NCBI GenBank assembly: GCA_913048175.1
Contig: CAJWVX010000016.1
Span: 1 to 35,302, forward strand
Direction: 5' to 3'
Length of the DNA stretch: 35,302 bases
Origin: an uncultured Flavobacteriales bacterium
GTDB lineage: Bacteria; Bacteroidota; Bacteroidia; Flavobacteriales_E; Vicingaceae
The notes beneath the pieces were generated by a model that searched no databases, had not been told where the DNA came from, and was given only the letters and a program-made list of their open reading frames with translations. This document shows, piece after piece, positions 1,099 through 33,009 of the stretch. The translations under genes were made by a program, and so were the position numbers. How positions within the stretch are numbered: the first letter of the stretch is position 1; each line of letters begins with the position of its first letter.

Positions 1099-1839
1099 AT
1101 GATCATATCTATTGTAAATCATAAAGAAGGCACTGCAACAACTACTAGTGCTATTAATATAAGTATTGGACTTGCAAGGCAGTATAGAAAAGTGCTATTG
1201 CTTGAGATGGATTTACAAGGTGATATTTCATCTGCACTAAATATTACAAATCAACAGAAATCTATAAATGAAGTTTTAATGGGAGAAGCATTATTTCAGG
1301 ATGTTATTTTACAAAGAGAAGGCATTGATGTGGTTCCTGCCAATATTAGCTTAGTTGATGTAGAGTTATCTATGTGGGAATTAGAGAATAACTTTTATCT
1401 CTTAAAAAAGCACTTATCAGTGTTGAGCAAAAATTACGATTATATAATTATTGACTGCCCTCCTTCTTTATCCTTATTAACCTTAAATGCTTTGTGTGCG
1501 AGTGATCAAATTATTATTCCGTTTAAATTAACTGTATTAGGTGTTAATAGTTTAGAGCTAATGCTGAGCACTGTTGAAAAAGTGCAAAAGAAGTTAAATC
1601 CGTCCTTAAAAATAATGGGAGTCTTACCTGTGATTGTAAATAAAAGAAAGAATATTTCGAAGGAAATTATGGATTATTTAACGAAGATGATCAATATTCG
1701 AATATTTAAAAACTATATACGTGCCAATGTTAAAGCTTCAGAAGCAGCATTATTTGGTATGAGTATACTAGAGTATGCACCCAATTCATCTAGTGCAATA
1801 GATTATAAAAATTTGGTAAAAGAAATAATTAACAGTTAA
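1099..1839 (+). CDS. ParA/MinD-like ATPase homologue with degenerate P-loop
   Basis: This 246-residue protein has the ParA fold signatures: a deviant Walker A position near the N terminus, a Walker A' segment LLLEMDLQGD (D38, Q40, G41), and a clear Walker B region DYIIIDCPPSLSLL (D119). The Walker A reads HKEGTATTTSA where the family has KGGxGKT[ST]. The signature lysine K9 is kept, but the second Gly becomes E10, the P-loop Gly becomes A13 and the P-loop Lys becomes T14. ATP hydrolysis is therefore doubtful. It is the first gene of the chemosensory cluster. ParA homologues in such clusters (PpfA, ParC) position chemoreceptor arrays, and a localisation or scaffold role here is an inference. 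The gene ends 25 bp before the STAS gene start. Confidence 0.8.
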   Translation: MIISIVNHKEGTATTTSAINISIGLARQYRKVLLLEMDLQGDISSALNITNQQKSINEVLMGEALFQDVILQREGIDVVPANISLVDVELSMWELENNFYLLKKHLSVLSKNYDYIIIDCPPSLSLLTLNALCASDQIIIPFKLTVLGVNSLELMLSTVEKVQKKLNPSLKIMGVLPVIVNKRKNISKEIMDYLTKMINIRIFKNYIRANVKASEAALFGMSILEYAPNSSSAIDYKNLVKEIINS

Positions 1840-1864
1840 AATAACTATGGCGATAGGAGGTAAT

Positions 1865-2308
1865 ATGAAACGGAAACAGTTAATTCCTGAGGAAGTAATT
1901 GCCCTTGATAAAGAACTTTTAAATGAATCTGCGATTAAAAAAGAACAAATTTCTGTTGAAGAATTTGTTAAGAATGAAGAGGTTATTTTTATAGTTGAGC
2001 CTTCTCGAAGAAAGGCAGTAAAAAAAGCAAAAGTATATTTAGGAGGAAAATTGAATTTGAACAATTCAACTTATATCTATTCACGATTTAAGTATTTATT
2101 GACCATTTATAATATATTGGATTTTAAGTTTAAAGATGTAGAAGAACTTGACATTAGTTCTATTCAAATATTTTATTTTTTCAAAACTATTTTTAGTACT
2201 GAAGGTAAAGAAGTCAACTTTCAAGTTGATGGCTTACCTCTAGAAATAAAAACACAATTAACAAAATTGAAATACAATAAAATTTTATTGAAAAAACCTT
2301 TCAAATGA
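1865..2308 (+). CDS. STAS-domain protein of the chemosensory cluster
   Basis: This small protein (147 residues from the chosen start) has a basic, Glu/Lys-rich N-terminal 50 residues followed by a STAS-like domain at about 55-140. The core LDISSIQIFYFFKTIF matches the STAS pattern in which an Asp-x-Ser-Ser loop follows a beta strand and leads into a helix, and GKEVNF is the next strand. S98 or S99 could be a regulatory phosphorylation site, by analogy with SpoIIAA. An ATG at 1847 is also in frame, but the ATG at 1865 is preceded by a strong AGGAGG at 1855-1860, so 1865 is preferred. The gene overlaps cheY by 4 bp (ATGA). STAS-CheY-CheA gene order is known from non-flagellar-type chemosensory operons. 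The family call is made by eye and is fairly but not fully secure. Confidence 0.6.
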   Translation: MKRKQLIPEEVIALDKELLNESAIKKEQISVEEFVKNEEVIFIVEPSRRKAVKKAKVYLGGKLNLNNSTYIYSRFKYLLTIYNILDFKFKDVEELDISSIQIFYFFKTIFSTEGKEVNFQVDGLPLEIKTQLTKLKYNKILLKKPFK

Positions 2309-2664
2309 GAATATTAATAGTAGATGATTCTGAGAGTATTCGTGAGTTAGTCGCTTCTTATTTAGAAGAAGCAGGTTTTAAAGTTTACAAAGGAATCAAT
2401 GGAAAGGATGCTTATGAGAAGATTAAAAATATTACGGTTGACCTTGTAATTACGGATTTAAATATGCCAGAAATGGATGGTATAATGTTGGTTATTGCAT
2501 TGAGAAAAGATCCTAAATATAAATTTTTACCGATTCTAATTCTAACTACTGAAACTGAAGCCGAAAAAAGACAACAAGCAAAAGAGGCAGGAGCTACGGG
2601 GTGGATTGTTAAACCTTTTGTAAAGGAAAGATTATTAAAAATGATAAATAAAGTAGTTCGCTAA
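2305..2664 (+). CDS. cheY: CheY-type single-domain response regulator
   Basis: A 119-residue stand-alone receiver domain with all key residues: the acidic pair D7-D8, the phospho-acceptor D51 in ITDLNMPEMDG, T81/T82 at the switch Thr position, and K103 in WIVKPF. There is no output domain. It overlaps the STAS gene by 4 bp, and its stop shares one base with the cheA start, so it is translationally coupled to both. It should take phosphate from the CheA encoded next. Without flagellar genes in view, its partner could be a gliding or other surface machine. The adjacent STAS protein is another possible partner (inference). Confidence 0.92.
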   Translation: MRILIVDDSESIRELVASYLEEAGFKVYKGINGKDAYEKIKNITVDLVITDLNMPEMDGIMLVIALRKDPKYKFLPILILTTETEAEKRQQAKEAGATGWIVKPFVKERLLKMINKVVR

Positions 2665-4706
2665 TGAATAGCATGAAATCAACATTTTTAGAAGAGACGA
2701 ATGAATTATTAGGGAAATTAGAAACTTCACTATTACTTCTTGAATCGAGTCCCGATGATGAGGAATTGATTGAGGAGATATTCAGATCTATGCATACGAT
2801 TAAAGGGAGTAGTAGCATGTTTGGATATGTTAAAATAGCTTCTTTTGTTCATAATTTAGAGTCTATTTATGATCAGATTAGATCCGGAAAATTAGCTATT
2901 ACTAAAGCATTGTTGGATGTTACACTAGGCTCTTTAGATCATTTAAGATTGGTAATAATTGATACTGAAGTTAACCATGAAATTAATAAACAAAACCATA
3001 AAAGTTTAACCACAAATATTCTGTCTCTTTTTAATGAGGACGTTGATCCAACTGATGATATCCAAGAAGATGTTGAAGTAAATGAGTTAATAAAAAAAGA
3101 AACTACTTATTATATTCTGTTTAAACCCAATATTAATATTTTAAAGAATGGTACTAATCCATTTTATATTCTAGATGATTTATCTGTTTTTGGGCAGACT
3201 GAAATATTCTCAAGGTTTGCAAAAATAGATAATATAGAGGGTTTTGAAGCCACTAATAATTACGCTTATTGGGAAATTTTTATTTCAACAGCTGTAAATA
3301 AGAATGAGTTGCTAGATGTTTTTCTATTTGTAGAAAGTGATAGTGAAATAAAGGTGGAAGAAATATGTAATTACAATCTATTAGCTGCCAAAGAAAGTAA
3401 AGCATATATACAAGAGCTTTCTCAGTTAAATACGAATGACTTAATTGAACTAGAAGTACTGAAAAAACACGTTAAAAAAAGTATTCAATATACCGTTGAT
3501 CCTATTGTTGAAAAAAAGGCACTTCTTGAAAATCCCTTAGAAAGTAACGTTCAAGAAAAAGGTGTTTCCAGTATTCGAGTAGATTCAGATAAGCTAGACA
3601 CGTTAATGAGTATTGTTAGTGAATTAGTAACAACACAAGCAGGCTTAAGCTTGCACTCAGAAAATAATTTTAATCCTGAACTTGAGGTGATTTCCGAAAA
3701 TGTAGAAAAATTATCAAGACAATTACGGGATGTTGCATTTGGGATGACCTTAATTCCTATAAAAACAATCATGAGTAGGTTTCAGCGTTTGGTTAGGGAT
3801 GTTTCTAGTGATCTTGGGAAAACGGTAAACTTTAAAATTGAAGGAGATGAGACTGAATTGGATAAAAATATAATAGAAAGCTTAACAGATCCTTTGATGC
3901 ATATTCTTAGAAATAGCTTAGATCATGGAATAGAAAGTACAGAAGAAAGGCTGAAACAAGGAAAAGAAAAAGAAGGTAATATTATTCTGCGTGCATTTTA
4001 TTCTGGAGCAAGTGTTCATATTCAAATAAAGGACGATGGTAAAGGTATTGATGTAAATACTATACAGCAAAAAGCTATAGACAAAGGATTGATTACAAAC
4101 GAGGCTCTTTTAAGTGAAAAAGAAATTTTAGAGCTCATATTTTCTCCAGGATTTTCGACCGCAAATTCTGTTACTGATGTCTCAGGTAGAGGAGTAGGTA
4201 TGGATGTTGTAAAGCGGAATATAGAAAATATAAGAGGTGAAATAGAAATAAAATCTATTGTTAATCAGGGAACAGTTTTAACGATTAAACTTCCATTAAC
4301 TCTTTCTATCATAGATGGATTGTTAGTTGAAATAGGAGATGTTAACTATATTATTCAATTGTCTGTTGTTGAAAAGTGTCATGAAGTAGCTTATAAAGAA
4401 TTAGCGAGCACTCTTAACCAATTATTGGTTTTAGATGATATTCAAATTCCATTTTTAAATTTACGAGAAGAATTTCTTGTTAAGACAGAGAATCCCTCAG
4501 AAACACAAGTAATTGTTGTAAATAATGGAGATCGAAAGGTCGGTATTACAGTAGATTCTATTATCGGAGTATCCCAAGCTGTTCTTAAACCTATTGGACA
4601 GTATTATAAAAATCAAGACTACATTTCTGGTACAACAATACTAGGAGACGGAACAGTTGCTTTGGTTTTAGATACGAATAAAATGATTAATCAATTTAAT
4701 AATTAA
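2664..4706 (+). CDS. cheA: Chemotaxis histidine kinase CheA
   Basis: A 680-residue CheA with full domain order. P1 Hpt is at about 1-105 with phospho-histidine H44 in MHTIKGSS. A divergent P2-like region lies at about 150-240. The P3 dimerisation helices start near 301 (IRVDSDKLDTLMSIVSEL). In the P4 ATPase the N-box LRNSLDHGIE is near 415, G1 DDGKGID near 457 and G2 GRGVGMDVV near 508. The P5 CheW-like domain is at about 545-680. All catalytic boxes look intact, so this is an active kinase. It should phosphorylate the CheY genes at 2305 and 11971 and the CheB at 10866. It starts on the last base of the cheY stop codon. Confidence 0.97.
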   Translation: MNSMKSTFLEETNELLGKLETSLLLLESSPDDEELIEEIFRSMHTIKGSSSMFGYVKIASFVHNLESIYDQIRSGKLAITKALLDVTLGSLDHLRLVIIDTEVNHEINKQNHKSLTTNILSLFNEDVDPTDDIQEDVEVNELIKKETTYYILFKPNINILKNGTNPFYILDDLSVFGQTEIFSRFAKIDNIEGFEATNNYAYWEIFISTAVNKNELLDVFLFVESDSEIKVEEICNYNLLAAKESKAYIQELSQLNTNDLIELEVLKKHVKKSIQYTVDPIVEKKALLENPLESNVQEKGVSSIRVDSDKLDTLMSIVSELVTTQAGLSLHSENNFNPELEVISENVEKLSRQLRDVAFGMTLIPIKTIMSRFQRLVRDVSSDLGKTVNFKIEGDETELDKNIIESLTDPLMHILRNSLDHGIESTEERLKQGKEKEGNIILRAFYSGASVHIQIKDDGKGIDVNTIQQKAIDKGLITNEALLSEKEILELIFSPGFSTANSVTDVSGRGVGMDVVKRNIENIRGEIEIKSIVNQGTVLTIKLPLTLSIIDGLLVEIGDVNYIIQLSVVEKCHEVAYKELASTLNQLLVLDDIQIPFLNLREEFLVKTENPSETQVIVVNNGDRKVGITVDSIIGVSQAVLKPIGQYYKNQDYISGTTILGDGTVALVLDTNKMINQFNN

Positions 4707-4707
4707 A

Positions 4708-6132
4708 ATGTACTTACTCTTTTTATATTCATTTTACCCATCAAGAGTTGTTTTAGTAGCTGCTCAAAAGGCAGTAGATCGACTTAAAAGAAGGGAGACT
4801 ACAATTAAAAAAACAAACCCCTTTTATTGTCAAGTAATAACCAGCTTAGTACTTATTGGAAGTTGTTTTTCAGCTATGGCTCAAGATACAAGTAAAACAT
4901 CTTCTTTTTGGATGGATGCAGCAATAAGACCAAGAACTGAATTTAGAAATGGTTTTAAGAAACTTCAACCTAAAAGAGGGGCTAATTATGCTTTATTTAC
5001 AGAGCAAAGATCGAGGCTTAAATTTAATTTTACAAATAAGGATATAAAATTAAAATTGATATTTCAAGATGTTAGAATTTGGGGAGAGGTAGGACAAATA
5101 AATAAATCTGATGGATTAAGTTCTGTTCACGAGTCATGGGCACAACTAATTTTAAACCCAACATCATCTTTAAAGTTGGGAAGACAAGAGTTGGTCTATG
5201 ATGATCAGAGATTACTAGGTAGTTTGGGTTGGGCTGCGCAAGGAAGAAGTCATGATGCCATACGTTTTATTCATGTTGATTCTACTTGGACTTTACACAT
5301 AGGAGGGGCATATAACCAAGGAAGTGATGTAGTAGAGCCCGGGAGATTAACCACTAATTTTTACGCTCCTAATACAAATGTCGTTGGTTTTGCTTTAGGT
5401 AATCCAAAAGATATGGAGTTTGTTTGGCTTAAAAAGAAAGTTAATAAGAAAGTAAGTTTTACCGCTTTAGTTTTAAATACAGGGTTTCAAACAGGAATAA
5501 AAGATTCTACAGAAAGTGTAACTTATTTAACAACAGTTGGATTGAATCCTAGAATAAAATTAGCAGAAAAAATAACTTTATTTGGTTCTTATTATCACCA
5601 GTTAGGTGAAAATGTAAACGCATATTTAGGCTCAATTAATCTGAAATATGGTTTTTCTTCAAAATTATCCATAACACTAGGAGCTGATATTTTATCTGGA
5701 GTAGATTCTTCGGATAATGTTAACGTAAAAAATAAAGCCTTTAACGTATTGTTTGGTACACATCACAAGTTTTACGGGTTTATGGATTATTTCTATGTTG
5801 GAAATGGGCATGGAACAGGAGGCTTAAATGATTTTTACTTAAAGTCAAAAATAAAGTTGACTAAAAAAATGACTCTTTTAACTCAGCTCCATTACTTTAT
5901 GACCAATGCATCTATAGCTGATTTTAATGGAGGAGTACTTAATTCGGTATTAGGAACAGAGGTCGATTTTGTATGGGTGTATCAATACAAAAAAGATATT
6001 GTTATTAAAGCCGGTTATTCTCAACTTTTTGGGACAAGTACAATGGAGGTTATAAAAGGAGGAAGCTCTTCAGCTCTTAACAACTGGGCTTGGTTGATGA
6101 TTGGAATTACACCTCAATTATTTAAGTATTAA
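4708..6132 (+). CDS. AlgE-like / alginate-export-family outer-membrane porin
   Basis: This is a beta-barrel-type protein rich in alternating aromatic/polar strands. Its N-terminal motif RPRTEFRNGFKKL and the strands RSRLKFNFTNKDIKLKLIFQ and LKLGRQELVYDDQRLLG are typical of the alginate export / AlgE-like porin family in Bacteroidota. A Sec signal (core ITSLVLIGSCFSAMAQ) ends near residue 59 when counted from the ATG at 4708. That leaves an odd 32-residue extension in front of it. The isoleucine codon ATT at 4804, followed by Lys-Lys and preceded by AAGGGAG at 4791-4797, would give a normal signal peptide, so the true start may be there. The gene lies between cheA (1 bp away) and cheW (3 bp away) and is almost certainly cotranscribed. 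The family includes porins for solutes other than alginate, and the substrate is unknown. Confidence 0.8.
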   Translation: MYLLFLYSFYPSRVVLVAAQKAVDRLKRRETTIKKTNPFYCQVITSLVLIGSCFSAMAQDTSKTSSFWMDAAIRPRTEFRNGFKKLQPKRGANYALFTEQRSRLKFNFTNKDIKLKLIFQDVRIWGEVGQINKSDGLSSVHESWAQLILNPTSSLKLGRQELVYDDQRLLGSLGWAAQGRSHDAIRFIHVDSTWTLHIGGAYNQGSDVVEPGRLTTNFYAPNTNVVGFALGNPKDMEFVWLKKKVNKKVSFTALVLNTGFQTGIKDSTESVTYLTTVGLNPRIKLAEKITLFGSYYHQLGENVNAYLGSINLKYGFSSKLSITLGADILSGVDSSDNVNVKNKAFNVLFGTHHKFYGFMDYFYVGNGHGTGGLNDFYLKSKIKLTKKMTLLTQLHYFMTNASIADFNGGVLNSVLGTEVDFVWVYQYKKDIVIKAGYSQLFGTSTMEVIKGGSSSALNNWAWLMIGITPQLFKY

Positions 6133-6135
6133 AAG

Positions 6136-6663
6136 ATGAAAAGTTTCAAAAAAAATAATTCAAGTATGAAAGACATTGAAAAAGAAGGCTTGTTAAATTC
6201 ATTTTTAACATTTAAGCTGTCCAACGAGCTTTTTGCAGTAGATGTTGCAAGGGTAATTGAAATTTTGGAGGTGCCAAAAATAACAGCTGTACCAAGATCA
6301 CCAGATTATTTAAAAGGGGTGATTAACCTAAGAGGAAATGTATTGCCTTTATTAGATACAAGGGTTAAGTTTAAAATGAAAGAAACAGAAATGACTGTTG
6401 ATACCTGCATAGTGGTTTTAGAAATCACGATAGAGGAAGAAGTTGTGGTACTTGGAGCATTAGTAGATGCTGTAAATGAGGTTATCGAGTTAAGTCCTTC
6501 AGATATAAAACCAGCCCCAAGTATAGGTAGCACATATCATCCTGATTTTATAGAAGGGGTAGTTAGATTTGAAGAAGACTTTATCATGCTATTAAATATT
6601 GGAAAAGTTTTTTCAATAGATGATTTAAACTTAATGACAGAAATAGTTACCAACAACAATTAA
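6136..6663 (+). CDS. cheW: CheW coupling protein
   Basis: A 175-residue single CheW domain: FLTFKLSNELFAVDV at the first strand, IEILEVPKITAVPRSP, then YLKGVINLRGNVLPLLD, the hallmark loop and strand of CheW. A second half (GALVDAVNEVIELSPSDI) and the closing IEGVVRFEEDFIMLLNI are also typical. It should bridge the receptor tip and CheA P5. The N terminus carries about 20 extra polar residues. Met-11 (ATG at 6166) is an alternative start that would remove half of these. It follows the porin gene by 3 bp and precedes the receptor gene by 32 bp. Confidence 0.95.
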   Translation: MKSFKKNNSSMKDIEKEGLLNSFLTFKLSNELFAVDVARVIEILEVPKITAVPRSPDYLKGVINLRGNVLPLLDTRVKFKMKETEMTVDTCIVVLEITIEEEVVVLGALVDAVNEVIELSPSDIKPAPSIGSTYHPDFIEGVVRFEEDFIMLLNIGKVFSIDDLNLMTEIVTNNN

Positions 6664-6695
6664 GATTAATAACAATAAACTAAATATATATTAAG

Positions 6696-8741
6696 ATGAA
6701 AAAGATATTACAAAACATAAATTTAAGTGGTAAAATTTTACTGATGCTAATTCTGCCATTGGCGGGAATGATTTATTTTTCGGTAGCCAATGTAATTGAA
6801 GAAAATGGGAAGTCAAATGAAATGGAAACGTTACAAAAAGCAATTCAATTATCTCGAAAAATTGGAGACTTTGTTCATGAAAGTCAAAAAGAAAGAGGGT
6901 TTACTGCTGGATTTATAGGGACTAAAGGAGGTAGGTTTTCTGCTGAATTATCGAATCAACAAAGTTTAACAAACGGAAAGCTTTCTATCGTTCAGGATTT
7001 TTTAAAAGATTTTAATAAAGAGGTATATGGGGTAGAATTTAATTCCTCTTTAAATACAGCTCTATTGTCTATGGATCAATTGAATGGCAAGAGAAATTCT
7101 GTAAACACATTAACCATATCTGTGACCAATGCAATAGAGTATTACTCCAAAATGAATGGTTCGTTTTTAAATGTGATAAGAAGTATTGCAAAGCTTAGCC
7201 AAGTGGCAGATTTAACTACTCAAACGAATGCTTATGCCAATTTTTTATTAAGTAAAGAAAGAGCAGGAATTGAAAGAGCAGTTTTAACGAATACGTTTGC
7301 TAATGATGAATTTACTCCTAAATCTTATCAAAAGGTTATCACCTTATGGGCCGAACAAAATGCATTTATTGATGTATTTAAAAGTACAGCTTCAGCGGAT
7401 CAAAAAACATTCTTTAATGAAAAAATGAATGCTGAATCTGTTCAGAAAGTAATAAATATGAGAGCTATTGCTGTAGAAAAAGCAGACAAAGGAAGTTTTG
7501 GAATTGATCCCTCAGTATGGTTTTCTTCAATAACTCAAAAGATAAATTTACTTAAAGATATAGAAAATAAATTGGCTAATGATGTAATTGAACTTGCCGA
7601 AACGACAAAAGTTAGTGCTGCCAATCGTTTTTTGATAAGCTTAGGACTAACCATTATTGTGTTAACACTATCTATATTTATTTCTGTTCTAGTTGCCAAA
7701 GGTATTGTAGAGCAAATTAAAGCTGTAAATACGGCTGTAGAGAGAGTTGCGGGGGGTGATTTAACGATTTCAATCATCACTTTTGGTAAAGATGAGTTTT
7801 CACAAACATTGTCTAACCTGAAGCTTATGGTTGAAAAATTAAGGGAAATAGTTTCTCAAGTGGTATTAAGTAGTGAGAATATAGCTGAAGCAAGTCAGGA
7901 AATGAATGGCTCTTCACAGCAAGTTTCTGAAGGTGCTTCAGAGCAAGCAAGTTCTGTAGAGCAAATTTCATCCTCCATGGAACAAATGGTGGCTAACATT
8001 CAACAGAATGCCGATAATTCTAAGCAAACAGAAAAAATTGCTGAAACAGCTTCTTTAGAAATAAAAGAAGGAAGTAATGCTGTGGAAGATACTGTAGGTT
8101 CAATGCAAACGATAGCTAAAAAGATTTTGATTATTGGCGAAATATCAAGGCAAACGAACTTATTAGCCTTAAATGCTGCAGTAGAAGCAGCAAGAGCTGG
8201 TGAGCATGGGAAAGGTTTTGCTGTAGTTGCAGCAGAGGTAAGAAAACTTGCCGAACGAAGTCAAAATGCCTCTATTGAAATTGATGAATTATCGTCAACC
8301 AGTGTAGAAATAGCTCAAAAATCTGGAAGTTTACTAAAGGATATAGTCCCTAACATTCAAAAAACATCTGATTTAGTACGAGAGATTACTACTGCAAGTC
8401 TTGAACAAAACTCAGCTGCGGATCAAATTAACAATGCTATACAGCAATTAAACGAAATTGTGCAGCAAAATGCAGCATCTGCTGAAGAATTAGCATCGAG
8501 TTCTGAAGAGTTAAATACGCAAGCTGATTTTATGAAAGATTTAACTAGCTTTTTTAAGATTAACAACAATAATACAGCTAAAATTTTAAGTGTGAAAAAG
8601 GATAAGCTAAATGTTATTAAACCTAAAAAGAAACAGGTTCTAAGATCAACGATTTCAGAATCAGTGAGTAGTCATAATGGTTTTAATATTGATATGAAAG
8701 GTGTTGGAGATTCTTTAGATACTGGTTTTGAACGGTTTTAA
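6696..8741 (+). CDS. Chemoreceptor (MCP) with NIT sensing domain
   Basis: A 681-residue methyl-accepting chemotaxis protein. TM1 is at about 13-30. A large periplasmic region follows (about 35-305) with NIT-family hallmarks [19 protein letters not shown] and [18 protein letters not shown]2 lies at about 310-334 ([20 protein letters not shown]) and HAMP at about 335-388. The signalling hairpin tip ([20 protein letters not shown]) is near 483. NIT domains are described as nitrate/nitrite sensors in some proteins, but ligand specificity cannot be read here. The C terminus ends DTGFERF after a basic linker, a possible tether for adaptation enzymes. It is the only receptor gene in the window and the natural input for the surrounding CheW-CheA-CheY. 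The cheR gene follows after 11 bp. Confidence 0.93.
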
Positions 8742-8752
8742 ATAATTAAACT

Positions 8753-9583
8753 ATGGAAGTAATAAGGATGACAGATCAGGAGTTTAAGAAATTAAGTATC
8801 CTAATTTATGAGGGGTATGGGATAAAAATGCCTGTAGCAAAAAAGGTGATGTTGGAGGGGCGGTTAAGAAAGAGGTTAATTATTACTAAAATGTCATCTT
8901 TTACTGCTTACTGTAACTTCCTTTTTAGCAAAGAGGGTATGAAAAATGAACTAATTCATATGATAGATGTGGTATCTACAAACAAGACAGACTTTTTTAG
9001 AGAACCAGGCCATTTTAATTATATGACTGACTTTTTATTACTTGAATTTCAAAAAGAGAGTAGAGGAAAACCTTTAAATATTTGGAGCTCTGCATCATCA
9101 TCAGGCGAAGAAGCCTATACAATTGCTATTACGATAGAAGAGTTTTATAAGCAAAATAAAACTTTTGATTATTCAGTGTTTTGTACAGATATATCTTCAG
9201 AAGTTATAAAAAAGGGAGTTCAAGGAATTTATGATGAATCTCGTATCTCGAATATTCCTTTGAATATTAAAAAGAAGTATTTTTTAAAAGGTAAAGAGGG
9301 AAACAATAATAAAGTACGAGTAGTTCCTGAATTGAGAAAAAAAATGACATTTAATAGGTTAAATCTTATGGATGATAGCTACAGCGTTCCTTACGACTTT
9401 GATGTGATTTTTTGTAGGAATGTACTCATCTATTTTGATAAACAGGTTCAAGAGCGGGTTATCAATAAACTATGTAATAAACTAAAAAAAGGAGGGATTT
9501 TGTTTTTAGGACATTCAGAGTCAATTGCAGGAATTAATGTACCCTTAGAAACTATAAGTCCAACTATTTATCGAAAGGTATAA
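8753..9583 (+). CDS. cheR: Chemoreceptor methyltransferase CheR
   Basis: A 276-residue CheR that methylates receptor glutamates using S-adenosylmethionine. The N-terminal helical domain contains the basic segment LEGRLRKRL. VSTNKTDFFREPGHF is the CheR signature. The SAM-binding motif is IWSSASSSGEEAYTIAIT, and FDVIFCRNVLIYFDKQVQ is the conserved beta-strand/helix of the catalytic domain, followed by GGILFLGHSES. No TPR extension is present. The start could be Met-1 (8753) or Met-6 (8768, preceded by AAGG). It pairs with the CheB at 10866 to give adaptation of the NIT receptor. Confidence 0.96.
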   Translation: MEVIRMTDQEFKKLSILIYEGYGIKMPVAKKVMLEGRLRKRLIITKMSSFTAYCNFLFSKEGMKNELIHMIDVVSTNKTDFFREPGHFNYMTDFLLLEFQKESRGKPLNIWSSASSSGEEAYTIAITIEEFYKQNKTFDYSVFCTDISSEVIKKGVQGIYDESRISNIPLNIKKKYFLKGKEGNNNKVRVVPELRKKMTFNRLNLMDDSYSVPYDFDVIFCRNVLIYFDKQVQERVINKLCNKLKKGGILFLGHSESIAGINVPLETISPTIYRKV

Positions 9584-9585
9584 TT

Positions 9586-10449
9586 ATGAGTGAAATAAAA
9601 GAGAAGGAATTGTTAGTAGAATTAAATAAACTCATTCAGATAAATTATAAACGATCAAAACAAAGTGAAATACTTTTAAAAGAATTAGAAACCGTTGATA
9701 ATCAAATTATTGAATATGATAAAGTTAAATCTCAATTTCTATCCAACATTAGAAATGAGATTAACAATCCTTTAACAGCTATTTTAGGTATGTCAGCTAA
9801 CCTAGCAAATAGGAGTATTGAAAAGGAGGAGGTGCATAAGACCAGTAATTTAATTTATCAGGAAGCTTTTGACCTTAATTTTCAATTAAAAAATATTTTT
9901 ATTGCAGCAGAACTGCAGGCAGGAGAGTTAATTCCTGAAATAGTAAATGCTCGAATTCCAGAATTAATTGCACAAATAACCAAGAAATTTCAACATAAAA
10001 CTGACAAAAAAAAGTTGACTATAACTTTAACCAATAAGCTAGAAAGTGACACTTTTAGAACAGATTCAGAAAAAATTTATTTAATGCTTTCTAATCTTTT
10101 AGCCAATGCAATAGAAAATAGTGAGCTAAAAGGAAATATAAATTTTGAGATTAAGATAGTGCAGGGCGAATTAGCAATTATAGTTCAATATTTTGGTATA
10201 GGAATAAAATTAGATGATAGCACAAATATTTATGATCGTTTTAAGCAGTTAGAAGAAGGTTCAATCAAAGGTTTTGGAGGGTATGTAGGGCTATCAATCA
10301 TCAAAGAATTACTGGAATTATTGGGGGGTAAAATTTCTGTAGAGAGTGAAGTCATGGTGGGAAGTACCTTTACTTTATTTATACCTGAAGGAATAGCACA
10401 AGAAGATTTGAACGCTCAATTTGGAGCGAATGAATTTTTATTTGAATAA
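9586..10449 (+). CDS. Histidine-kinase-like protein lacking the phospho-His (probable pseudokinase)
   Basis: A 287-residue soluble protein with kinase architecture: N-terminal coiled coil (about 1-48), HisKA-like helices (about 44-110) and an HATPase_c-like domain (about 125-268). The H-box reads FLSNIRNEINNPLTAILG where kinases have FLxNxSHExRTPL, so the phospho-accepting His is N57. The N-box is good (LMLSNLLANAIENS, N174). The G1 aspartate is replaced by Y202 (QYFGIGI), and the G2 glycine-rich loop is partly lost (GGYVGLSI). The open frame, normal codon use and 2-bp spacing after cheR indicate a functional protein rather than decay. It has no sensor or membrane segment. A regulatory partner of CheA or of the array is an inference. 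It occupies the place where cheD is often found. Confidence 0.85.
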   Translation: MSEIKEKELLVELNKLIQINYKRSKQSEILLKELETVDNQIIEYDKVKSQFLSNIRNEINNPLTAILGMSANLANRSIEKEEVHKTSNLIYQEAFDLNFQLKNIFIAAELQAGELIPEIVNARIPELIAQITKKFQHKTDKKKLTITLTNKLESDTFRTDSEKIYLMLSNLLANAIENSELKGNINFEIKIVQGELAIIVQYFGIGIKLDDSTNIYDRFKQLEEGSIKGFGGYVGLSIIKELLELLGGKISVESEVMVGSTFTLFIPEGIAQEDLNAQFGANEFLFE

Positions 10450-10865
10450 AGGTATAGGTTTTTTGAAGCCTGAAATAGAAAAATATTGATATGTATTACT
10501 TGTGTTAATCGACTATTTAGATACAGAATAGCATGTGTTTACTAACAAAATTTTCATGCTTTTTTATAGGTGTTTTTTTACGATACAAAACTAAAAATTG
10601 GAGCGATTACACATTTTAAGTTTTTCTTGTAAAATAGCTAAGTTGGTTACCAAAAATATTGTTGCCACGTTGTTTTGATGTGCAAATAAATAAAAATGGA
10701 TGCTGAACATTTGTTCGTGAAATACGCAAGTTGTAATTTTTTAACAAAAGAGAAAATAAAATTATAGAGAACAGTAATGGAGGTATTGTATAGCGTATAA
10801 TGATTTTTGATTATTTAACGTTTGAAGTGATTATAAAATACTTAAAACTAGTGTGAAATAAGCTT
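10450..10865. other. 416-bp non-coding gap inside the chemosensory cluster
   Basis: No frame of useful length is open here on either strand, and no tRNA-like or terminator-like structure is evident. The stretch is AT-rich with many stops. It sits between the pseudokinase and cheB, so it may hold a second promoter for cheB and the downstream cheY. A TATAAT at 10795-10800 is present, but no clear TAnnTTTG motif was found. Confidence 0.5.
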
Positions 10866-11942
10866 ATGAAAAATAAAATAAAAGTGTTAATCGTTGATGA
10901 TTCTGCTTTGGTAAGAAATACCATGGAACAGATGTTCTTGTCTGATAACGATATTCAAGTCATAGGCAAAGCAGCAGATCCATTTATAGCAGCAAGTTAT
11001 ATCCGTGAAAATATTCCTGATGTAATTACATTAGATATAGAAATGCCAAGGATGGATGGTTTAACTTTTTTACAAAAGATAATGTCTCAGCATCCTATTC
11101 CTATTGTCGTTATTTCTACCTTAACAGCTAAGGGTGCTGAAACAGCCTTAAAAGCATTAGAGTATGGGGCCGTAGAAGTTTTAGAAAAGCCAAAACTGAA
11201 TACTAAACAAGTACTAGAAGAGTCTACCAAAAAATACTGTAGAATAATAAAAGCTGTAGCAGAGGTAAAAGTAAAAAGGAGAATAGTAAAGCCTCCTGTA
11301 TTTAAAAGTATTCCAAAATATTCTGCAGATGTAATTTTAGGTAAATCACCTAAAGTAATATTAGCAACTAGAACAGAACAAGTTGTTGCAGTTGGAGCAT
11401 CAACGGGAGGTACCGAAGCAATTAAAAGTTTTTTAATCGAACTAGAATGTGATTGTTCAGGTATTGTAATTGTACAACATATGCCAGAAATTTTTACAAA
11501 GCATTTTGCAGAAAGGTTAAATGACTTGTGTAAAATAACAGTTAAAGAAGCAAAAAATGGCGATAGTGTATTACCAGGGCAAGCATTAATAGCACCTGGT
11601 AGTCATCATATGGTTTTGAAAAGAAGTGGAGTAAGATACTATGTAGAATTAAAGGGTGGTCCATTAGTTAATAGACATAAGCCATCTGTAGATGTTTTGT
11701 TTAGATCTGTTTCTAGATATGCGGGGAAAAATGCTTTAGGTATTATACTCACAGGAATGGGGGCTGATGGAGCAAAAGGCTTATTGGAAATGAAGCTGGC
11801 TGGAGCAAAAACAATTGCTCAAGATGAAGGCTCTTGTGTTGTTTTCGGAATGCCCAAAGAAGCCATCGCTTTAGAAGCTTCAGATTATGTGTTACCGCTC
11901 GCAAGTATTGCTACTAAAATGATTCAATTATCAATAAAATAA
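10866..11942 (+). CDS. cheB: CheB receptor methylesterase / response regulator
   Basis: A 358-residue two-domain CheB. The receiver domain (1 to about 122) has D11/D12 and phospho-acceptor D57 in [11 protein letters not shown]. The methylesterase domain (about 170-355) has the catalytic triad: S179 in [11 protein letters not shown]205 in VIVQHMPE, and D301 in [23 protein letters not shown] and GMPKEAIAL are further family signatures. Phosphorylation by CheA should activate removal of methyl groups, and in many species deamidation of glutamines, which fits the lack of a cheD gene. It lies 416 bp downstream of the previous gene and 28 bp before the second cheY. Confidence 0.96.
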
Positions 11943-11970
11943 ATTATGAGAAATTTAAAATAATAGAACA

Positions 11971-12342
11971 ATGGGAAAAAAAGTATTAATAATAGATGAT
12001 TCCTTTTTTATGAGAGAATTTATTAAAGGAGCCTTAGAGGAAGCAGGTTGGGAAATCGTAGGTACAGCTGGAAGTGGTGATGATGGTATTGAAAAAGCTT
12101 TAGACCTTGCACCTGATTTAATTACCTTAGATAATGTATTGCCAGATATGCTTGGGGTTGATATTGCAAGGATTTTGAAGAAAGAAGAGGGTGTTTCTTC
12201 AAGAATTATAATGATTAGTGCCTTGGGGCAAGATGGGATAATCGAAGAATGTATAGCTAATGGTGTTGAAGATTATATTGTGAAACCCTTTTCAGAAGAA
12301 AGCTTATTAGAAAGAGTAGGGAACTTATTTAAAGCAGTATAA
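11971..12342 (+). CDS. Second CheY-type single-domain response regulator
   Basis: A 123-residue stand-alone receiver domain. D9-D10 form the acidic pocket, D54 in ITLDNVLPDMLG is the phospho-acceptor, S84 sits at the Thr/Ser switch (MISALGQ), and the Lys in YIVKPF is conserved. It diverges clearly from the CheY at 2305: EMDG-type Asp becomes DMLG, and it is closer to the CheY most often found beside CheB. It ends the chemosensory cluster. Two CheYs with one CheA commonly means one output regulator and one phosphate sink, but which is which cannot be decided here. Confidence 0.92.
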   Translation: MGKKVLIIDDSFFMREFIKGALEEAGWEIVGTAGSGDDGIEKALDLAPDLITLDNVLPDMLGVDIARILKKEEGVSSRIIMISALGQDGIIEECIANGVEDYIVKPFSEESLLERVGNLFKAV

Positions 12343-31230: not shown

Positions 31231-33009
31231 ATGAGATCATTTAATTTAAAAACAACCATACTTTTTTTGCTTCTTCCTTTTTTTGGGAAATCACAGATTT
31301 ATGATACTTTAATTACAGAGCATTTTGATAATATCACAAATATGACTAGCTCTGCTGGGTTTGGTGGTGTAATAAGTAGTAGTACTTGCGGAAGTGCTAA
31401 TATATTTAATACAACCACAGATTCTAGAGCTTTAAATTGTGTTCATTATGAGCCATCAAGTTCTGTATTTGTTTGTTCAGATAAAGATGCTGTTGGAGTA
31501 GGTGCTGGAGCAGTGTCAGTTGAAATGTTAACCTATACCGCTGTTGATAATGATGAAATTGGTTTTGTGGGATACTTTGCAGCCTATGATTTTAATAATT
31601 TAGAAACAGCTGAAATAGTTGAATTATTCTATAGTACAGATAATGGGTTAACGTATACGTCATTTCTTATTTTGACAGGAAACTCTACTGAGAACCCTAG
31701 TTATTCCGCTCCTTCTTCGACTCAAGAAGGTTTTTCTTGTAGTGATGGTAGTGCTGCTGTACAGTCTGAGTTTATTAATAAAGAGTTTTCTATTGGAAAT
31801 AATTTAAGTGGTCAAATCATTAAAATTAAAGTTGAATTTAGTGGTTTTACTAGTGGAAGTGAGGGGGTCGTTTTGGATGAGTTTAGTTTGGTGAAAGTTA
31901 GAAATATATTAGCTTCAGAAAATTTTGATAATACTACATTTTTAACAACTTCAACTGGAGCATTTAATACGGCTACAGAAGGTAGCTGTAATGGTAGTTC
32001 TTTATATAATTGCACATCTAATATGGCTACACCATCAAATGCATTAGATTGTTTAGGTGGAGAGGATGGTAATGTGTTTGTTATGACTGGTGGTGGTGTT
32101 GCTTCTGGAGCTGAGTTAGAAATGTTAACTTATACCACTATTGATAATAACGAGATATCCTTTAGGGGGAGTTTTGCTTCTTTCGGAACTGACCAAAATA
32201 CTGATAACTTCATAGTAGTTGCCTATAGCACTGATAACGGCAGCACTTATACGGATGCTTTTACTGTAACGGGAATCGATGGTGGTTCTGGAACTGATTG
32301 GCATAGTATTTCTGATGGAACTTCTACAATAGGTAGATCATTTATTAAAAAAGGTTTTGTTATTGGTAGTAATTTAAGTGGAAGTACTATAAAAATTAAG
32401 ATAACGTATGATACTTATACAAATGGAGGTGATGGAATTGCAATTGATAAGTTTAGGCTTGAAGGTTCTTTAATGAATACTCTTCCTGTAACTTTGGTAG
32501 ATTTTTCTACTAAATTATTTGGCGAAAAAGTTCATTTGAATTGGAGTACCTCTTCAGAGATTAATAATGATTATTTTACTTTAGAAAGAAGTTTAGATGG
32601 TGAAAAATTTAATGAAATAACTATTGTTGAAGGTGCTGGAAATAGTAATAATTTATTAAAATATAACTTTATTGATGATGAAAACACTTTGTCAGGAACT
32701 GTTTATTATAGATTGAAACAAACAGATTATGATGGTAAAAATTCATATTCGAAAACGACATCTGTTAATGTAAAATTAGAAAACATAAATAGATGGTCTA
32801 TTTTCCCAAACCCAGCAAAAGAGATGTTAAATTTCGAGGGTGATGTAGTTAAAGTTGAATTAGTAAATATTTTAGGGGAATCAGTTGAGGGTATTGAGTT
32901 TGTAAATTCAAGATTAACTTTTGATAAAGTTGCTAATGGAACATATTTAGTTAGAGTTTGGTTTAATGATGGAAATACAAGCCTAAAAAAACTAGTTGTA
33001 AACCACTAA
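31231..33009 (+). CDS. Secreted type IX secretion cargo protein with internal duplication
   Basis: A 592-residue exported protein. The signal peptide (LKTTILFLLLPFFGKSQ) ends near residue 21. Two homologous beta-rich modules follow, at about 25-222 and 225-410. Each opens ..EHFDN/SENFDNTT, carries a Cys-containing loop (SSTCGSANIF / EGSCNGSSLYNC) and passes through EMLTYT...DN.EI.F.G.FA. A linker domain (LPVTLVDFSTKLFGEKVHLNWS, then YYRLKQTDYDGK) precedes a C-terminal sorting domain: WSIFPNPAKEMLNFEGDVVK, NILGESVEG, and GTYLVRVWF...KKLVV. The last is the type A T9SS signal, so the protein is exported and likely attached to the surface. Function is unknown; adhesion or carbohydrate binding is possible. 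Confidence 0.88.
   Translation: MRSFNLKTTILFLLLPFFGKSQIYDTLITEHFDNITNMTSSAGFGGVISSSTCGSANIFNTTTDSRALNCVHYEPSSSVFVCSDKDAVGVGAGAVSVEMLTYTAVDNDEIGFVGYFAAYDFNNLETAEIVELFYSTDNGLTYTSFLILTGNSTENPSYSAPSSTQEGFSCSDGSAAVQSEFINKEFSIGNNLSGQIIKIKVEFSGFTSGSEGVVLDEFSLVKVRNILASENFDNTTFLTTSTGAFNTATEGSCNGSSLYNCTSNMATPSNALDCLGGEDGNVFVMTGGGVASGAELEMLTYTTIDNNEISFRGSFASFGTDQNTDNFIVVAYSTDNGSTYTDAFTVTGIDGGSGTDWHSISDGTSTIGRSFIKKGFVIGSNLSGSTIKIKITYDTYTNGGDGIAIDKFRLEGSLMNTLPVTLVDFSTKLFGEKVHLNWSTSSEINNDYFTLERSLDGEKFNEITIVEGAGNSNNLLKYNFIDDENTLSGTVYYRLKQTDYDGKNSYSKTTSVNVKLENINRWSIFPNPAKEMLNFEGDVVKVELVNILGESVEGIEFVNSRLTFDKVANGTYLVRVWFNDGNTSLKKLVVNH

Follow-up and report, generated by a model that had tools for sequence, protein, structure and literature searches.

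The window, the whole 35,302-nucleotide stretch of DNA analysed here, comes from an uncultured Flavobacteriales bacterium and carries a chemotaxis (che) cluster on its forward strand (1099-12342). By Pfam, this cluster comprises a ParA/MinD-type ATPase (1099..1839), cheY with a single receiver domain (2305..2664), cheA with Hpt, dimerisation, HATPase_c and CheW domains (2664..4706), cheW (6136..6663), a chemoreceptor with a NIT (nitrate/nitrite sensing) domain (6696..8741; E 2.9e-57), an intact cheR (8753..9583), the gene studied here, called X (9586..10449), an intact cheB (10866..11942) and a second cheY-like single receiver (11971..12342). The same genome holds a second che cluster on contig C25 (L012, 6289-15975), with the same gene order and 39-73% identity; the order common to both is parA, short gene, cheY, cheA, cheW, receptor, cheR, X, cheB, cheY. 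The ParA-type ATPase and the short protein (1099-2308 in the window) head both clusters, the paralogue of the short gene giving a sub-threshold STAS match. Between cheA and cheW the window encodes a 474-residue protein (4708-6132; Alginate_exp, 28 bits, just above cut-off), a gene that the C25 cluster lacks. The C25 receptor is shorter than that of the window and aligns to it through its C-terminal half only. A secretion-system sorting tail at 31231-33009 of the window is among the gene content that points to Bacteroidota as the phylum.

X is an intact open reading frame of 287 residues on the forward strand. Its start lies 2 bases past the cheR stop (9583), so the original prediction of an intact frame tightly spaced behind cheR holds. 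The same prediction placed X between cheR and cheB; cheB starts only at 10866, 416 bases beyond X, and the gap contains a decayed cheD. Both domains of X score over the Pfam cut-offs (HisKA, 32.3 bits, residues 48-108; HATPase_c, 70.8 bits, residues 160-268) and both N-box asparagines of the ATP-binding domain (Asn170 and Asn174; 10087..10119) are kept, in agreement with the predicted HisKA/HATPase layout and good N-box. At E values up to 0.1, X matches HisKA and HATPase models of Pfam only, with no CheC/CheX domain, no PAS and no Pfam sensor domain; the N-terminus is helical. Among the 25 NCBIfam matches listed of 59 models matched, no named kinase is above its curated cut-off (best 120.5 bits against 400). 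A profile of X compared with solved structures ranks HK853 first (E 1.7e-39) and gives DivL 1.1e-32. The AlphaFold model (pLDDT 77.4, from an alignment of only three sequences) has a helical hairpin and an ATP-binding domain whose lid (residues 218-232) is disordered, and Foldseek with this model returns DivL (4q20, E 2.7e-20) first and HK853 second, by a small margin. The HisKA plus HATPase_c fold of X is not in doubt.

The open reading frame, Pfam, the family alignment and the structure model together place X among the pseudo-histidine kinases. The phospho-His site is occupied by Asn57 (aat, 9754-9756), the first residue of the motif N57-E58-I-N-N61-P62 (9754..9771), which has Glu at +1, Asn at +4 and Pro at +5. 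The G1-box Asp is replaced by Tyr202 (tat, 10189-10191), and the G2 loop (10270..10305) is degenerate, reading GGY-VGL against GGHGLGL in the C25 paralogue and lacking one residue relative to the orthologues that show the region. All three alterations had been predicted, and the sequence confirms them. The C-terminus (10426..10449) ends in NEFLFE against NEFLFEEGDELF in the paralogue, the window protein being 6 residues shorter. An assembly error or a pseudogene spanning the whole frame was considered and rejected: the frame is open, a full-length paralogue of 53% identity exists, and the NExxNP motif is kept.

Directly after X lies a cheD pseudogene remnant (about 10564..10859, forward strand), identified by comparison with cheD as three collinear pieces in three reading frames that cover cheD residues about 32-56, 84-111 and 119-155. 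The best piece reaches a tblastn E of 8.5e-4 across the whole window, and none of 1000 dinucleotide shuffles attains the best or the summed score. An open cheD is present in the C25 cluster and absent from the window. X had been thought to sit where cheD often sits, which is wrong, since the family precedes cheD and the remnant follows the window X directly. X as a substitute for cheD is rejected on the same grounds: cheD follows X elsewhere, and its remnant does so here.

A family with a single origin

Besides the 53% paralogue on contig C25, a two-row model of X found matches in five other genomes of the class (395 genomes searched, E up to 1e-40). Three of these are short orthologues flanked by cheR and cheD (G239, G270 and G295); the other two matches lie within long kinases. 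Among 247 genomes of the order of G270, with at most nine candidates scored per genome, at least 59 genomes carry at least 60 short orthologues that score 200 bits or above. The family analysed below consists of 64 distinct proteins: the order-level orthologues, the window X, its C25 paralogue and the G239 and G295 copies. Matches scoring below 200 bits, for the most part longer kinases, were excluded. Frame length (about 300 residues) separates the orthologues from these longer kinases, and four shorter frames under 200 bits (one of 318 residues in G623, three of 405-421) carry His and are ordinary kinases. A profile scan of contigs with the window X gave just two ordinary, His-bearing kinases. 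In a quick maximum-likelihood tree (34 of the 64 X proteins and 35 of 35 other kinases; alignment A3 covered 38 of the 64), the 34 X rows fall on one side of a branch with SH-aLRT 100. X is thus a member of a single-origin pseudo-histidine kinase family in the chemotaxis adaptation module of one bacterial class. No Pfam model, and no NCBIfam model among the matches listed, names the family; no description of it was found in the open-access literature searched.

Within the window's own order, X and CheW occur in only one of 46 genomes, the window's own (the sampled genomes all belong to one family; CheW in 0/45 others). Of 395 genomes drawn evenly from the phylum, the window's genome alone matches X at E up to 1e-60. 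Either the two che clusters are foreign to the lineage, then, or they are ancestral and survive in the window's lineage alone, or their contigs are misbinned. Of 20 window proteins, 17 of them from outside the che genes, three find a match at 1e-10 in 17 stretches of a same-genus genome, all distant.

The lost histidine and the ATP site

Position 57 is Asn in all 63 orthologues that show the residue, one of the 64 copies being without the region. The replacement comes with correlated change around it: Asn61 and Pro62 are invariant (63/63 each), Glu58 is present in 62/63, and the +3 residue is mostly hydrophobic (Ile 37, Val 22, Asn 3, Tyr 1) against Arg or Lys in 33/35 other HisKA kinases from the fetched loci. 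The +4 residue is Asn throughout the family, and Thr (29/35) or Asn (4/35) in the other kinases. As a control, the histidine is present in 35/35 of the latter (39/39 with four borderline matches), and eleven kinases near X examined in full all retain it. Since Asn57 is found in 63/63, the lost phospho-His is an old, fixed and family-wide trait. Whether homologues never have His at position 57 was the check set by the original prediction, and they never do. A recent, independent loss in the window's genome is likewise rejected, as the asparagine is universal and the family forms one clade. Judged from these residues, the family should not autophosphorylate at the usual position.

The ATP site tells a different story for the family and for the window copy. 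Asn170 and Asn174 are present in 64/64, Gly206 in 58/64, and position 202 is Asp in 58, Asn in five and Tyr only in the window (n=64). The G2 deletion is also confined to the window copy, and its own C25 paralogue retains Asp202. Most members thus seem to keep the ATP-site motifs, and the loss looks mostly specific to the window copy; with Asp kept in 58/64, including the same-genome paralogue, Tyr202 and the G2 changes would be later losses there. For the ATP-site half of the original prediction, this retention of Asp in relatives is the very outcome it had named as pointing to recent decay. In five members (L068, L069, L072, L077 and L079) the G1 Asp is changed to Asn, yet Asn57 and cheD are kept.

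These residues bear on one possible role, that of a pure allosteric sensor or scaffold resembling DivL, which would bind a receiver or the adaptation enzymes with no catalysis and for which ATP binding would be structural and dispensable. The fixed loss of the histidine fits such a role, as do the five orthologues and the window copy that lack the G1 Asp and are still in frame, and the Foldseek rank of DivL, small as its margin over HK853 is. The ATP-site motifs are mostly kept, however (Asp202 and Gly206 as counted above), and a phosphatase-type Asn is invariant, so that we consider a scaffold of this kind rather unlikely.

Selection and decay of the window copy

dN/dS was estimated for 14 pairs, of which seven proved saturated. 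Five pairs of intact orthologues with computable dS (0.76 to 2.35, the higher values near saturation) gave 0.035, 0.049, 0.062, 0.089 and 0.106, which shows purifying selection on the orthologues; where one partner was the split copy L081, the value was 0.249. X has the fold of a histidine kinase, a replaced phospho-His and a replacement fixed under selection, the features that define a pseudo-histidine kinase. The window X compared with its paralogue gave 0.183 (dS 1.92).

Across 61 rows (L063 and L080, cut at contig ends, and the split L081 left out), 41 columns reach 95% conservation or more. The window copy deviates at seven of them, more than any other row, and the next row at three; two of the seven changes are common to the paralogue and several are conservative. 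The claim that selection maintains X is upheld for the family (dN/dS 0.035-0.106), but the window copy looks relaxed. Window-specific changes exceed paralogue-specific ones with 5/5 outgroups, one chi-square (5.3) passing 3.84, and the tree branch of the window X is 0.65 against 0.28. Faster change is not peculiar to X, because cheB of the window leans the same way (4/5 outgroups, two above 3.84); cheW leans the opposite way (one chi-square at 4.0), and cheY, cheA and cheR show no significant lean between window and paralogue.

The window X is a duplicate from which ATP-site residues and the end of the tail have been lost, next to a broken cheD; a better-preserved copy, accompanied by an open cheD, exists elsewhere in the genome. 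It looks relaxed in constraint after cheD broke, an order of events that we infer. The loss of the ATP site cannot be tied to the loss of cheD alone, because the five orthologues without the G1 Asp keep cheD. Overall, the finding is stronger than first proposed at the level of the family and weaker for the window copy.

Genomic context and the link with CheD

The typical module order is cheR-X-cheD-cheB. Where the downstream side is visible, cheD lies directly 3' of X in 58 of 60 non-window cases. Counted over the 64 copies, these 58 comprise 49 with cheR directly upstream, five in which a gene with a receiver separates cheR from X, and four without a recognised upstream gene. Three of the last four are at a contig edge; the other, in G464 (L042, 1501-2882), is a lone X-cheD pair with neither cheR nor cheB beside it and with neighbours that look non-chemotaxis. 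Five copies have no recognised downstream gene, three at a contig edge and two in G483 and G583, members of one genus in which cheR and X are adjacent and cheD is on another contig. At L070 (2293-3156) and L081 (4063-4927), loci of one genus, X lies by cheR and away from cheD, and in one of the two genomes X is split between frames.

Co-occurrence follows the same pattern. CheD is found in 68 of the 247 genomes of the order, including all 59 X carriers whose matches were listed (Fisher 9e-48, ignoring kinship). Nine genomes have CheD without X; in eight the CheD scores more weakly, and in the ninth, G565, a strong CheD lies in cheR-cheD-cheB. CheD is a better candidate partner of X than CheA, which the original prediction had named along with CheB and the receptor array; X as a non-catalytic partner of the adaptation machinery is plausible. 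Searches among the carriers found CheC in 0/62, CheZ in 0/62 and a CheX domain in 1/62, there in a separate che cluster. CheX is rare in the whole order (3/247 genomes), so carriers of X are not alone in lacking the known phosphatases.

Hybrid kinases that carry the histidine occur near X in several clusters, and it is conceivable that X phosphorylates a histidine on another protein (CheA P1 or the neighbouring hybrid kinase) in a hetero-complex. The N-box, G1 and G2 are kept in most members, and so is the +1 Glu, a kinase residue in CrdS (PMC3510030); yet most clusters seen have no HisKA kinase adjoining X, and the window copy and five others are without the G1 Asp. Such activity in trans is very unlikely.

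The tail of X suggests a further role. Acidic across the family, it has Phe as its last residue in 57 of 62 copies (counts from stop-to-stop frames, some cut by locus ends; L063 and L080, cut at contig ends, left out). A C-terminal [DE]-x-Phe is present in 49/62 X proteins and 23/28 receptor-like frames, against 2/295 other che proteins and 13/104 unclassified long frames. X might then be a tether, bringing in CheR or CheB in the manner of chemoreceptor tails. The receptor pentapeptide depends on an aromatic residue at position 2 (PMC7390727), and only 2 of the 62 X tails have one. With aromatics at positions 2 and 5 as the yardstick, the canonical CheR/CheB pentapeptide is rejected for X. Despite the resemblance, the tail is not called a receptor tether, because the position-2 aromatic is missing; we regard that role as extremely unlikely.

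A possible role beside CheD

What could a histidine kinase fold without its histidine do next to CheD? According to PMC3510030, HisKA helices contact receivers, the +4 Thr/Asn is needed for phosphatase activity only, the histidine helps in that activity without being strictly needed, and CheX uses an ExxN motif. In Bacillus subtilis, CheC is a weak CheY-P phosphatase that binds CheD under CheY-P control, and its binding to CheD matters more than its catalysis (PMC3513319). DivL is a pseudo-kinase that reads a phosphorylated receiver (PMC4211667). From these precedents and, more weakly, from the lack of CheC and CheZ and the near-lack of CheX in the carriers, it can be proposed by analogy that X does the job of CheC, docking on CheY-P or CheB-P, possibly hydrolysing the phosphate and signalling to CheD, the window copy being a decayed duplicate. 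We hold this proposal tentatively, at slightly less than an even chance. The helical, Asn-bearing domain would dock on the phosphorylated receiver (CheY-P or CheB-P). Asn61 may then hydrolyse the receiver phosphate; the NExxNP motif combines CheX's ExxN with the phosphatase-type residue found in HisKA kinases. Whether X is bound or free would be signalled to CheD and so tune receptor modification.

Several observations count against the CheC-like proposal. X keeps the +1 Glu in 62/63, and in CrdS this residue is needed for kinase activity only (PMC3510030). Changing the histidine lowers phosphatase activity in CrdS (PMC3510030) and in HK853, where it takes part in the reaction (PMC5727384). 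The standard docking mode is weakened because X has lost the basic +3 residue: DivL has an arginine in that place, R553, which is needed for receiver binding (PMC4211667). In the genomes, G565 has cheR-cheD-cheB without X, and G483 and G583 keep X apart from cheD.

Alternatively, X may be a stand-alone phosphatase of CheY-P (or CheB-P) that does not itself act on CheD directly; their common operon would then reflect co-regulation only. It would account for the invariant phosphatase-type Asn +4 in NExxNP, for the parallel with the ExxN of CheX and for the missing phosphatases in nearly all 62 carriers; it leaves unexplained the X-CheD co-occurrence and the lone G464 pair. The contribution of the histidine to HisKA phosphatase activity (PMC3510030, PMC5727384) tells against it too, as does the rarity of CheX with or without X (3/247). 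On balance, a stand-alone phosphatase is unlikely.

The CheC-like proposal can be extended to the history of the module. A histidine kinase may have lost its phospho-acceptor once and become the usual CheD partner in a large bacterial group, probably the Bacteroidota, as a reader of receiver phosphate that replaced CheC by an unrelated fold and closed the feedback from CheY-P/CheB-P to receptor modification. The window would then show this module coming apart, with cheD broken and the ATP site and tail end of X lost. This wider scenario is possible, at clearly less than an even chance. To our knowledge, few pseudo-histidine kinases have a known function, and a widespread one inside chemotaxis operons would be a part of this model signalling system that has gone unrecognised. 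X could also explain chemotaxis in carriers without detected CheC, CheZ and, in 61/62, CheX, and it gives a testable claim on what CheD needs as a partner.

Comparison with known systems

The best-known pseudo-histidine kinase with a function is DivL of Caulobacter. X resembles it in the HisKA/HATPase fold with a replaced phospho-His, and DivL is the nearest solved structure to the X model by Foldseek, although the sequence search ranks HK853 first. DivL has Tyr at the His site and PAS domains and acts in cell-cycle control (PMC4211667); X has Asn, lacks PAS and is found in che operons. With HK853 and the bifunctional HisKA kinases X shares the fold and the domain order; unlike them, it has no phospho-acceptor His, a mostly hydrophobic +3 residue, Asn at +4 and no Pfam sensor domain. 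CheX has the ExxN motif in common with X but belongs to another Pfam family. Like CheC of Bacillus, X accompanies CheD; it carries a possible ExxN phosphatase motif and may, by analogy, act on CheD under CheY-P control. Differently from X, CheC belongs to another Pfam family, and its domain occurs in none of the 62 X carriers.
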